Assembly (NCBI GenBank): GCA_009838965.1 | Contig: VXQP01000071.1 | Span: 1-55,205, forward strand | Direction of reading: 5' to 3' | Length of the DNA: 55,205 nucleotides | Source of the DNA: Chloroflexota bacterium | Lineage (GTDB): Bacteria > Chloroflexota > Dehalococcoidia > Lucifugimonadales > Australimonadaceae | Part shown: positions 4,665 through 48,099 of the stretch, one piece after another | Numbering within the stretch: position 1 is the stretch's first letter | Layout of the letters: the number at the start of each line of letters is the position of its first letter | Notes under the pieces: generated by a model | Database searches by the model: none | What the model was told of the DNA's origin: nothing | What the model saw: only the letters and a program-made list of their open reading frames with translations | Translations under genes and position numbers: made by a program

Positions 4665-7600
4665 ATGGTTGCCAACTTATCGTTCCCTACCCGCCACCTC
4701 TCGATCAGAGTCCCTTGGCATGATGCTGGTTGGGATGGCACCGTTTGTAAGGATCCCATACATAACTTGGCTTGCCTCAAGCTTAGCCGCATCGCTGAAA
4801 AAAAGAAGGAGGATGTAGAGGCAGGTCTAATAGGACGCCATTTCAAAGACTTGTTACCTAAAGATACGCCGCCCTGTATGCAAGAACGCGGAGCCTTTAT
4901 GAGTCCTAACAGCATGCTCAGGCAGTATGTACACCCTTATCATCAAACTAGCGACGCTCACAAACACTTTACAGCGACCATTGCCCAACACCCTGCCTAT
5001 TCAGCAGAGGCTGTCCCTTTCAGATGGTTGAGCAAAGACTTTGAGGAAGAGTTGGTCAGGCAACACCCACTTGAGGCCCTAGACCAGGCATTGGAACCAA
5101 AGCTCGGCTTCGAAACACGCTGGTGGCAAGACTATCTCAACCACAAGACTCTTCTAGAGGCCTTTTGGAGCTACATCAAAGTAGAAGAATCACTGATATT
5201 TTTCTACGCGAAACAAGTGCCATTAGCCGAGGACGCCGCTGGTCGGCGTATGCTTGTTGGAGTTGGACGAGTTAAGCGAATCGACAATCTTATCGAGCAC
5301 CAGTACAACGGACCAGTTGATGGGAAACTGCGCAGCATGATCTGGGAAAGGATGATAGGCCATTCCATCCGCCCCACATTCGAGGATGGGTTTCTTCTGC
5401 CTTACCATGAAGCGCTTGAGAAGTGTACAGAAGACAAACTGGCAGAAGTCGTTGCCTACACCCCAGAGGATCGTTTCACGGAGTTCTCTTACGCCACTGA
5501 GCACGTGAGCGATGATGCGGCTATCGACGCACTCAGGGCTATACGTTCTTCATTGCTGAAGTGCACCGAATTATTCGGAGCGGACACCCACAAGCAAGCG
5601 ACGTGGATAGACCAAGAACTAGGAAGGCTATGGGAAAATCGCGGCCCGTTCCCGGGTATGGGGTCAGTGCTCTCTGCAATGTCAGTCCCCATGGGCAACT
5701 TTATCGCTCGAGAAGTAACAGAGCAGGCCGAGAATAATAACGAGTCGCTTTGGGATGTGTGGTTCTCGCTATTGGATTCACCGGACAAGTACCTTACGGA
5801 CGAGCTTGCCAAGCATATCGGTCCCACTACTGCAAAGTCATGGCAACTCATGCCCGAGGAGCGCCGGGCGTTCTTGGAACTGCTCAGCCGTATAGATATA
5901 ACTCACAGCCAGGCTGAGGCACTCGTAACTCCTGAAGGCAGAGCAAGTGTACTAGGCATGACACAAGATGATACAGCATTCATTGCTAATCCTTACCTTC
6001 TATATGAATCTACGCGCTTCACCACAAGGCCAATCAATATAGGAACGGTCGACCGTGGTGTATTCCCCTCTGCCTCGATACGCGATAAGTTTCCCGTGGC
6101 CGAACCGTCCAGAATTGCTGAGGCGGTTGATGAACGGCGTTTGCGCGCTCTAGTGATTCGCGAACTTGAAACTGGGGCCAACTCAGGCCACACGTTAGTT
6201 CCACGCGAGAAGATCATTCAAAGTCTTCGCGCAGGAGCCCAGGCGGACAACGAACCGCAGACGCTCGTAAGTGCCGACCACATGAGAGTTGCCGAGGGCA
6301 ACTCTTTTCCGGGTCAAGTGCGCATCACGCAGATGAGCAATGGGGAACCAGCGTATCAATTGGAAAGGCTAGGCAAAGCCTCCGACCGCATTAGGAACAC
6401 AGTCAAGCGGCGAGTTGAAGCTAAGCGACATAGCATCGTCGCCAACTGGGAATCGGAACTTAACAAGGTATTGGGAATACCTCCTTCTGGTGAAGGTTTA
6501 GATCAAGTGGAAGAGGCGCGAGCACGGCAAGAAAAAGCGAGTGCGCTAAATGAGATTGCCAACGCGCGGTTCAGTGTGCTCATCGGTTCGGCTGGAACAG
6601 GTAAAACTACTTTGCTTTCTGTCTTATGTAAACGTCCGGAGATTCAGGACAAAGGAATCCTACTTCTTGCGCCCACGGGCAAAGCACGCGTCCGAATGGA
6701 AGATATCGCCAAGCGGGCAGGAATCAAGAATTTCAACGCCTACACGCTGGCGCAGTTCCTTATGCAATATGGCAGGTATATTCCGGATACTCAACGCTAC
6801 GTGCTAACAGAGCAACAGGACAGTCAGACAGCTAAGACTGTTATTGTTGACGAGTCTTCTATGCTCACAGAGGAGATGCTTGCAGCATTGCTTGAGTCGT
6901 TAGCCAACATCGATCGGTTGATACTAGTCGGCGATCATCGGCAACTCCCACCTATCGGCGCAGGCCGACCGTTCGTCGATATTATCAACTACATCAAACC
7001 AGAAGAACTATCGTTCCCTAGAGTAGGTCGAGCTTATGCGGAGTTGACAGTCCAGCGACGTCAATCATCTGAGGACAGAGATGCGCTTGATCTCGCTGAT
7101 TGGTTCGGTGGAGAACTGACATCAGGGCATGATCACATCTTTGAGGTGCTGTCAGGTAAACGAGAAAGCCAAACTGTAAAGGTTGTTCATTGGGACACCG
7201 CAGATCATCTTGTCAACAAACTTCCTGAGATTATCGGTGAACACTTAAGGTTTGATGCAACCAAGGATGAAATTCGCGCATTCGATGAAAGTCTAGGAGG
7301 CACGCCTGTCAATTCCGGGGTGTATTTCAATGCGGGTGCCGGAGCTGGAGCAGAGCATTGGCAGATACTCAGTGCCTCTCGGCAGAGGCCATGGGGAGTT
7401 GAACCACTCAATCAAACCATCCATCGAAAATTCAGAGGCAAACAGATACAAACTTCTGTAAGGGACACACGTTTCGTGAAGCCTCTGGGTGAGGAACTAA
7501 TTGTTTACGGCGATAAAGTCATCAATAATAGGAACAGAACCTTGTCTCGTCGGCGCAAGTCCCCTGCAGGAGGATACCTCGCAAACGGTGAGATAGGAAT

Positions 7601-45302: not shown

Positions 45303-45710
45303 ATGAAGAACACGTTCAGCGGCATGGTCAGGAAGGACAGCGGTCTCAGCCACCGACAGGCGGCCGCGCTCCCGTACATCGCATCGGAGCCGACGCTCGC
45401 ACGGGGAGCGAACGCCGCACAGGTCGCACGGAGCACCCTGGCACGGTGGATGCGGGACCCTGCTTTCCGCGCGGAACTGGAGTACATCCGCAACAACATG
45501 GCGGACCTCGCGTTCGCGGAGCTGGAGGGGCTTGCGCTCAAGAGCGTCATTCGCTTGGCGGAACTGCTCGAAAGCGAGAATGAGAACGTGGCGCACCGCG
45601 CGTTGAAGACCGCAGTGGCCACCACCCAGACCCTCAGGGAGCAGCGTGCCCTCCGCCACAGGCTCGACCTGCTGGAGAACGCCCAGATCATGATGAGGCA
45701 GCAGCGGTGA
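45303..45710 (+). CDS. small helix-turn-helix-type protein, phage-like
   Basis: 135 residues. The first half (LSHRQAAALPYIASEPTLAR, then NAAQVARSTLARWMRDPAFR) resembles the homeodomain-like segment of phBC6A51-type and terminase-small-subunit-like proteins: a repeated-helix DNA-binding part followed by a W-x2-DPxFRxEL motif. The second half is helical and charged. Start ATG 45303 follows GGAGGAGG. Its stop overlaps the next start as GTGA. It may be a remnant of a mobile element next to tRNA-Pro; no integrase is seen. Confidence 0.6.
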   Translation: MKNTFSGMVRKDSGLSHRQAAALPYIASEPTLARGANAAQVARSTLARWMRDPAFRAELEYIRNNMADLAFAELEGLALKSVIRLAELLESENENVAHRALKTAVATTQTLREQRALRHRLDLLENAQIMMRQQR

Positions 45711-46081
45711 GGACCTCCGCCAGAGGACTCGAACGCTACTACGGGTGTTTGCTCGCCCAGGCCGCGCTCCAACCTATCGCCGAACAGTACGTCGTCCGCT
45801 GGATGGACGCAGTCGAGCGCGGCGGCTATCCGCCCGACGTCGCGGAACTCTTCGAGGCCGCGGCAGCAGAACGCGTCCCCGTCCTCAGCCCCGCTCCCGT
45901 AGTCTCCTACCTCCGGCAGTGCTTCAAGACCGGACGCGTCCCGGACGAGACCCGCATCGTCCTGGCTATCGCTCACGCCTACGCCGAGGGCGACCTGATG
46001 AACCTCGACAGGACGTGCCGCTGCCCCGCCCGCCGCCCGGTCTTCCGCCGCCCCAGCTTCAGCAGCTTCACAGGAGAATAG
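45707..46081 (+). CDS. hypothetical protein coupled to the upstream phage-like gene
   Basis: 124 residues starting at GTG 45707 with a 4-nt overlap. Mostly helical, with a C-terminal TCRCPARRPVFRRPSF that has two cysteines and many arginines, a possible nucleic-acid contact or zinc site. No family recognised. The tight coupling means it probably works with the preceding protein. Confidence 0.5.
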   Translation: MRTSARGLERYYGCLLAQAALQPIAEQYVVRWMDAVERGGYPPDVAELFEAAAAERVPVLSPAPVVSYLRQCFKTGRVPDETRIVLAIAHAYAEGDLMNLDRTCRCPARRPVFRRPSFSSFTGE

Positions 46082-46214: not shown

Positions 46215-46241
46215 TATGATATTCGTTCGGAACATTAGTTC
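46215..46241 (+). promoter_or_regulatory. promoter with GAAC-N4-GTTC (LexA-type SOS box)
   Basis: TATGAT (46215-46220) is a strong -10. Nine bases after it is GAACATTAGTTC (46230-46241), an exact GAACnnnnGTTC as bound by Gram-positive-type LexA. It would overlap the transcription start and block RNA polymerase. The ribosome binding site AGGGGAGG (about 46247-46254) follows, then ATG 46262. No good -35 is seen. Confidence 0.65.
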
Positions 46242-46261
46242 TATTCAGGGGAGGTCAGACC

Positions 46262-47584
46262 ATGCTCATCCAGCGCGCTCCGGACGTCTACGAGAAGCTG
46301 CGACACCTCGGCGGAATGGCGACAGACGACGTGCTCTCGCCCGCCGAACGCTCGGACGGTGTGGCGCGCCCGGGCGAGGGCTGGGAGCGCGTTGGGCCGC
46401 GCGGCGGAGTGACGCCATACGCGGGTGTCTACAAGGCCGCGATGCCGAACGGCAAACGGATCTCCCTGATGCGCGTGATGTTCACGGACCACTGCATCAT
46501 GGACTGCCACTACTGCCCCAACTCCTACTGGGTGCCTCGCAGGCGCTACGGGTTCAAGGTGGACGAGCTCGCACGGCTGTTCGACGAGATGCACAGCCGC
46601 CACATGGTGGAGGGGCTCTTCCTGAGCTCGGGCATCTTCAAGGACCCGAATGCCACGCAGGAGCGACTGTTGGACGTGGTGGAGGCGATACGCTCGCGCT
46701 ACGGGTTCCGCGGTTACATCCACCTCAAGGTGATGCCCGGCACGAGCACGGACGCGCTGCTCGAGCAGAGCCAGCGGCTCGGCGCGCGGCTCTCCGTCAA
46801 CATGGAGTCTCCCTCCGCAGAGCACCTGCGGAAGGTAAGCACGATGAAGGATTTCGACAACGGCATCGTCGCGCCGATGAAGCGCATCAGCGAGCTCATG
46901 CAGGAGCGCTACGGAGGCGCGGTCGGCCAGGCGACGCAGCTCGTGGTCGGCGCGGCTGACGAGTCGGACTGGGACATCTACACCCGGATGCGGAGCCTGT
47001 ACGGAGAGTACGGGTTCAAGCGCGTCTACTATTCCGCGTTCCGTCCCGTGCAGTACACGCCGCTGGAGGAGCACCCCGCGACGCCGCCCGTGCGCGAGCA
47101 TCGGCTCTACCAGATGGACTGGCTGTCTCGCATCTACGGCTACGACGCGGAGGAGCTCCGCCCCGCCTTCGACACAGGCGGCTTCCTGGAGCTACGCGCC
47201 GACCCGAAGCTGATGATTGCGATGAACAACTTCGAGCAGTTCCCGGTCGACGTGAACCGCGGAACCGAGCGCGAGCTGCTGCGCGTTCCCGGCGTCGGGC
47301 CGCTGGCCGCGAACCGCATCGTGAAGCAGCGGGCGCAGCACACCATCACGCAGCGCCAGGAGCTGCAGGCGATGGGCGTAGTGATGAAGCGCGCTATGCC
47401 GTTCCTGCGCTTCCCCGGCCACAAGCCCACCCCCGCGAAGCAGGGCGAACTGGCGCTCTTCCGCGAGCAGTCCGCAACGCCTGCACAACCGTCGCGCCGG
47501 ACGGTGGATCTGCACGCGACGCACGCGGCATCCGGTTGCACGTCGTGTCCGCTCAACCCCGGGACCTGCGGCATGGCCGCGTAA
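46262..47584 (+). CDS. radical SAM DNA repair/modification-type protein with helix-hairpin-helix
   Basis: 440 residues. The radical SAM cluster is C78-x3-C82-x2-C85 (DHCIMDCHYCPNS). The barrel continues with LFLSSGIFKDP and YIHLKVMPGTS. Around residues 335-350 is a helix-hairpin-helix, LLRVPGVGPLAANRIVKQR, a DNA-binding element. The C-terminus has three more cysteines (SGCTSCPLNPGTCG). This matches the putative DNA modification/repair radical SAM family usually linked to a uracil-DNA-glycosylase-like partner; the partner gene is not in this window. The upstream LexA-type box supports a DNA-damage role. The exact chemistry is unknown. Confidence 0.88.
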   Translation: MLIQRAPDVYEKLRHLGGMATDDVLSPAERSDGVARPGEGWERVGPRGGVTPYAGVYKAAMPNGKRISLMRVMFTDHCIMDCHYCPNSYWVPRRRYGFKVDELARLFDEMHSRHMVEGLFLSSGIFKDPNATQERLLDVVEAIRSRYGFRGYIHLKVMPGTSTDALLEQSQRLGARLSVNMESPSAEHLRKVSTMKDFDNGIVAPMKRISELMQERYGGAVGQATQLVVGAADESDWDIYTRMRSLYGEYGFKRVYYSAFRPVQYTPLEEHPATPPVREHRLYQMDWLSRIYGYDAEELRPAFDTGGFLELRADPKLMIAMNNFEQFPVDVNRGTERELLRVPGVGPLAANRIVKQRAQHTITQRQELQAMGVVMKRAMPFLRFPGHKPTPAKQGELALFREQSATPAQPSRRTVDLHATHAASGCTSCPLNPGTCGMAA

Positions 47585-47637: not shown

Positions 47638-48099
47638 ATGCTCAGAGTCGGCACGCAGGCCCCTGACTTCACCCTGCCGCTCACCTCCGGCGAACCCTTC
47701 ACCCTCTCGGAGCAGCGCGGGCGGAACGTCGTGCTCTTCTTCTTCCCCCGCGCGGGCACCAAGGGGTGAACCTGGGAGGCCGCGGAGTTCCGCGACAGGC
47801 ACGACCGCATCGCCGCCGCAGACGCAGCCGTGGTTGGCATCAGCACGGACGGCTCCGACGCGTTGTGCGACTTCGCCCAGAGCCTCGCCCTGCCCTACGA
47901 TCTCGCGTCCGACCGCTCCGGCGAGGTGCGGCGTCTCTACGACGTGCGGCGCCGGTTCGGGCTCGGCACCTCCCGGTTCACCTACGTCGTGGACGACGCC
48001 GGAGTGATCCGGAGCGTGTACCACAACGAGTTCGTGATGAAGAGCCACGCCCGGAGCGCGCTCGAGGCGCTGGAAACGCTCCGCAACGGTCGGGTGTAG
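47638..48099 (+). CDS. peroxiredoxin (Bcp/AhpC-TSA type), probable selenoprotein with UGA at codon 44
   Basis: 153 residues if the in-frame TGA at 47767-47769 is read as selenocysteine. The N-terminal part VGTQAPDFTLPLTSGEPFTL and VVLFFFPRAGTKG, then U, then TWEAAEFRD, matches Bcp-type peroxiredoxins (FYPKxxTPGCTxEA), with U44 exactly where the peroxidatic Cys stands. The frame stays open afterwards through VVGISTDGSDALCDFAQ, DLASDRSGEVRRLYDV and FTYVVDDAGVIRSV to TAG 48099. Such enzymes reduce peroxides with thioredoxin or other thiols. A hairpin follows the UGA at SECIS distance. The alternative, a nonsense mutation, is less likely given the position and the otherwise perfect frame. Promoter TGCTACCAT at 47606-47616 region; ribosome binding site weak. 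Confidence 0.85.
47781..47794 (+). promoter_or_regulatory. candidate bacterial SECIS hairpin
   Basis: CGCGG (47781-47785), loop AGTT, CCGCG (47790-47794). The loop starts 16 nt after the UGA, and G is the second loop base, as in the general bacterial SECIS rule (G in the first two loop positions, loop roughly 16-37 nt from UGA). The stem is only 5 bp, so this is plausible, not certain. Confidence 0.5.

Follow-up and report, generated by a model that had tools for sequence, protein, structure and literature searches.

To our knowledge, the radical SAM/helix-hairpin-helix (HhH) proteins of family TIGR03916, which we take to be the same as COG4277, are always paired with a TIGR03915/DUF4130 or a UDG-type partner. 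The name TIGR03916 itself was not found in the literature searched. SOS regulation of the COG1573-COG4277 operon has been predicted in Bacteroidetes (PMC8565304) and, as cited in the same paper, in Verrucomicrobia and Alphaproteobacteria. A function as a mutagenesis-related enzyme has been proposed for DUF4130, together with a link to UDGs and radical SAM photolyases (PMC3765255), and spore photoproduct lyase (SplB) is SOS-regulated in several species (PMC8565304). In Gram-positives LexA is known to recognise GAAC-N4-GTTC, and for alphaproteobacteria the motif reported is GTTC-N7-GTTC (PMC3323433). SOS control of the family has thus already been predicted in other phyla, and the Chloroflexota case is an extension of it, not the first. 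What is new here is that the Chloroflexota members, judged from their sequences and neighbourhoods, are without a DUF4130 or UDG-type partner and in most cases fall short of the score required for the family.

The gene of interest is located in a window (the whole stretch of DNA analysed, 55,205 nt) of a SAR202-type Dehalococcoidia genome (Table 1). We conclude that it is very probably under the control of LexA and hence part of the SOS response.

Table 1. Coordinates of the features discussed; positions refer to the window unless another contig or locus is named.
Feature	Position	Strand	Basis
TATGAT, candidate -10 element	46215..46220	+	sequence
LexA (SOS) box GAACATTAGTTC, palindromic GAAC-N4-GTTC, predicted operator	46230..46241	n/a	exact match, matrix score, ortholog conservation
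Shine-Dalgarno GGGGAGG	46248..46254	+	sequence
Radical SAM + HhH protein, 440 aa, TIGR03916-like (rSAM_link_UDG), partnerless Chloroflexota branch	46262..47584	+	Pfam/NCBIfam matches
PrxQ/BCP-type peroxiredoxin, probable selenoprotein	47638..48099	+	in-frame TGA 47767-47769
Box GAACATATGTTC	G000 C37:9476 (L083:1501)		upstream of small-HTH cassette
Box GAACAAACGTTC	G000 C5:20487 (L007:1501)		upstream of similar small-HTH cassette
LexA-type gene, Nitrospirota operon	L185:279-923
Radical SAM gene, Nitrospirota operon	L185:933-2207
dinB-type gene, Nitrospirota operon	L185:2204-3442

Predicted operator and its conservation among orthologs

The box lies 20 nt ahead of the ATG at 46262, and the coordinates confirm the description in the initial annotation of an exact GAAC-N4-GTTC palindrome nine bases after TATGAT and ahead of the Shine-Dalgarno sequence. 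TATGAT is a plausible -10 element of the gene; it recurs in L020-L022, which are close members of the genus, and is lacking in L023. Inspection of the promoter sequence revealed no good candidate for a -35 element at the usual distance from it. Exact GAAC-N4-GTTC boxes occur three times in the window and 58 times in the 3.01 Mb genome, which corresponds to a chance of about 0.1% for one in any given 60-nt stretch. A scoring matrix trained on lexA promoters only, whose sites had been chosen by their closeness to the Gram-positive consensus and which is therefore independent of the radical SAM promoters but not of that consensus, gave the box at 46230 the best score of the three in the window (17.1), followed by that at 7005 (14.4).

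A palindrome of this kind could have arisen by chance and be without function in regulation. The genome holds 58 exact matches, and most of those examined (50 of 58 inspected) are not in evident promoters and were set aside on this ground. We consider a chance match at 46230 hardly credible and reject it because of the conservation of the box among orthologs. When the 147 genomes of the order were searched with the radical SAM/HhH protein, 55 gave matches. A scan of named genomes assigned the group to SAR202/Dehalococcoidia within Chloroflexota and gathered 80 radical SAM loci with 63 usable Dehalococcoidia promoters, some of these loci being near relatives of one another. Within 150 nt upstream, 58 of the 63 orthologs have a box that deviates from the motif by no more than one base, amid widely differing promoter surroundings, as compared to 5-6% in the controls (dinucleotide shuffles and flanking DNA). 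The exact box was found in 37 of the 63 (controls 0.2-0.3%), and a matrix score of at least 12 in 86% of the promoters (controls 0.2-0.4%). The expectation that a true operator would recur in front of orthologs was thereby borne out. Inspection of upstream regions showed the box in all listed members of the genus and in most of the order, and it is kept in orthologs down to approximately 50-60% protein identity. Upstream of the chosen start of four Dehalococcoidia loci (L141, L146, L151 and L153), no box was recognisable. Two further orthologs (G064:C4:22702-23958 and G048:C110) contain in-frame TGA codons that may reflect a frameshift, decay or recoding.

Within most Anaerolineae the box falls inside the 17-nt spacer of a TTGACA/TATAAT promoter; at these and similar loci it begins 3-5 nt past a -35 element that is TTGACA or differs from it at one position, and its end precedes the -10 element. 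A repressor bound between both elements would exclude RNA polymerase.

LexA, its regulon and predicted SOS control in other phyla

The genome encodes one good LexA (C29:59171-59809; 180 bits, over the cut-off), in which the residues for self-cleavage, as read from the sequence, are kept: the Ala-Gly site, the serine and the lysine (AAGEP, GYSMID and TLKHF). Its own promoter carries the box GAACGTTCGTTC within the sequence AGAACGTTCGTTCTA, 22 nt ahead of the lexA ATG, so that the predicted occurrence of the same motif at lexA was found. Across the order the box, either exact or with a single mismatch, stands in 24 of 27 lexA promoters. The corresponding prediction for recA failed: no box is present within 400 nt upstream of the gene, and an exact match at C52:33236 was rejected as a regulatory site because it is located inside the conserved codons for ERQF. 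Likewise, no box was detected nearby upstream of dinB, the single Y-family polymerase gene found in the genome. Since recA and dinB are both without a box, the regulon seems to be unusual and small. No earlier description of a LexA regulon in SAR202 or other Dehalococcoidia was found in the literature searched.

Two boxes, on C37 and C5, scored highest among those seen in this genome (22.4 and 21.2). Both are situated upstream of small XRE-like HTH genes, which suggests that these are damage-inducible mobile or phage-like cassettes. The same two sites raise the question whether the box at 46230 is a real operator that serves another repressor with the same motif, for example one of these small XRE-type HTH proteins. 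Such an assignment appears very unlikely to us, as the motif is present at lexA itself in 24 of the 27 genomes and is identical to the Gram-positive LexA motif (PMC3323433). The box of lexA and the conservation among orthologs together lend strong support to the original proposal of a LexA-regulated gene.

An operon in Nitrospirota (L185, on a contig titled Nitrospirae) provides a physical tie of the radical SAM gene to the SOS response. It consists of lexA, the radical SAM gene and dinB, identified by reading the translations; the genes abut or overlap, and a box of the GAAC-N4-GTTC type (GAACGATCGTTC) stands just ahead of lexA. The partnered genes of Azospirillum and Leisingera (L204 and L206) are preceded, at distances of 39 and 17 nt from the start, respectively, by GAAC-N7-GAAC, the reverse complement of the alphaproteobacterial motif. 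With this motif in alphaproteobacteria and GAAC-N4-GTTC elsewhere, LexA control seems to recur across the radical SAM/HhH family with different operators. A family annotated as 'putative DNA modification/repair radical SAM protein' would thus be under a damage switch in Chloroflexota, too, by means of an operator that differs from the alphaproteobacterial one.

The radical SAM/HhH protein and its missing partner

The product of the gene matches Radical_SAM (PF04055) and HHH_3 (PF12836) in Pfam, and its motif C78-x3-C82-x2-C85 is invariant; the radical SAM centre and the HhH domain that the initial annotation had read from the translation are therefore present, as are the two features (CxxxCxxC and HhH) by which TIGR03916 is recognised. 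The best NCBIfam match is TIGR03916 with 305.7 bits, below the curated cut-off of 343.5, and a match above this cut-off is found in only 3 of 301 sampled Chloroflexota genomes. The Dehalococcoidia proteins often have a Cys-rich tail. An AlphaFold model shows a radical SAM core, a confident HhH domain and a disordered tail at a mean pLDDT of only 72.6. Foldseek matched it to generic radical SAM enzymes (HydE, lipoyl synthase, biotin synthase) and to no single repair enzyme, so the structure search gave no specific clue to a substrate; a sequence search of solved structures returned essentially HhH matches only.

DUF4130 was detected in none of 30 genomes that carry the radical SAM gene, and the same search did detect it in the three control genomes, in which TIGR03916 is present as well. 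Among 301 sampled Chloroflexota genomes DUF4130 and the radical SAM protein did not overlap (8 versus 46). Neither was a partner found adjacent to the gene across the loci by tblastn with four partner proteins, except for a divergent UDG-like stretch in Bacterium HR24 (L178, 2241-2579, minus strand), the sole UDG neighbour in 80 loci. A conserved new partner was considered and dismissed, as the neighbours vary between genomes and none was seen to be conserved. Two UDG-family genes are present elsewhere in this genome, and no box was found in the loci examined for either of them. In Azospirillum, Leisingera, Bacteroides and Pusillibacter plasmids, the radical SAM homologs are directly followed by UdgX or TIGR03915 genes; these four form one group with a support of 100/100 in a tree of 34 proteins that sampled only four partnered ones. 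Taken by their sequences, the Chloroflexota proteins are a stand-alone branch that retains a predicted SOS switch. We tentatively suggest, with some doubt, that the enzyme performs SOS-induced repair without UDG or DUF4130 and that the radical SAM protein on its own accounts for the core chemistry. If so, the core repair chemistry would be open to study as a single protein, and the partnerless form would be a simpler system for finding the substrate.

Just 5' of the gene, two overlapping small open reading frames of 135 and 124 amino acids (window 45303-46081, plus strand) gave no Pfam or NCBIfam match. The peroxiredoxin gene follows on the same strand after a gap of 53 nt and is possibly cotranscribed with the radical SAM gene. 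Its in-frame TGA is exactly at the position of the peroxidatic cysteine (AGTKG-U-TWEAAEFRD) and is kept in four relatives (L108, L109, L110 and L115), and selB was found in all six genomes tested. A small hairpin 3' of the TGA is no more stable than shuffled sequences. The peroxiredoxin is probably a selenoprotein that annotation would truncate.

Proposed function and comparison with known systems

When bound to the operator, LexA would prevent the radical SAM/HhH gene from being transcribed by acting at its start region; after DNA damage, LexA would cleave itself under stimulation by RecA and come off the operator, and the enzyme would be made. We assume both steps because they follow from established LexA biology together with the evidence presented above. 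The subsequent steps are more conjectural. The HhH domain presumably binds damaged DNA, where the radical SAM centre could generate a 5'-deoxyadenosyl radical that reverses or modifies a base lesion, so that the enzyme may act like spore photoproduct lyase without belonging to it. We lean slightly towards lesion reversal. Alternatively, the gene could be SOS-controlled and its product modify DNA or a nucleotide, or act on protein or RNA. The family, rightly called poorly understood at the outset, is named only 'putative DNA modification/repair', and the generic radical SAM matches of the structure search would fit such a role as well; however, the HhH domain, SOS control across phyla, the operon with lexA and dinB and the UDG/UdgX partners elsewhere speak for repair. 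We therefore regard this alternative as somewhat doubtful, though with a substantial chance of being correct, and retain lesion reversal as our working model.

Like SplB (COG1533), the protein is a radical SAM enzyme of repair type, its own repair role being presumed. Unlike SplB, it belongs to another family and carries an HhH domain; COG1533 was absent from its Pfam and NCBIfam matches. To the COG1573-COG4277 operon (UDG plus HhH/radical SAM; TIGR03916 with TIGR03915/DUF4130 or UdgX) it is related by a homologous protein of 37-41% identity and by predicted LexA control. In contrast to that operon, the Chloroflexota members have no DUF4130 partner (0/30) and a LexA box of the Gram-positive type, mostly score under the TIGR03916 cut-off and, in Dehalococcoidia, often carry the Cys-rich tail. 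As compared to the GAAC-N4-GTTC regulon of Firmicutes and Actinobacteria, where a box at recA is usual but not obligatory, recA and dinB of this genome are without a box, whereas the core motif and the box at lexA itself are common to both.
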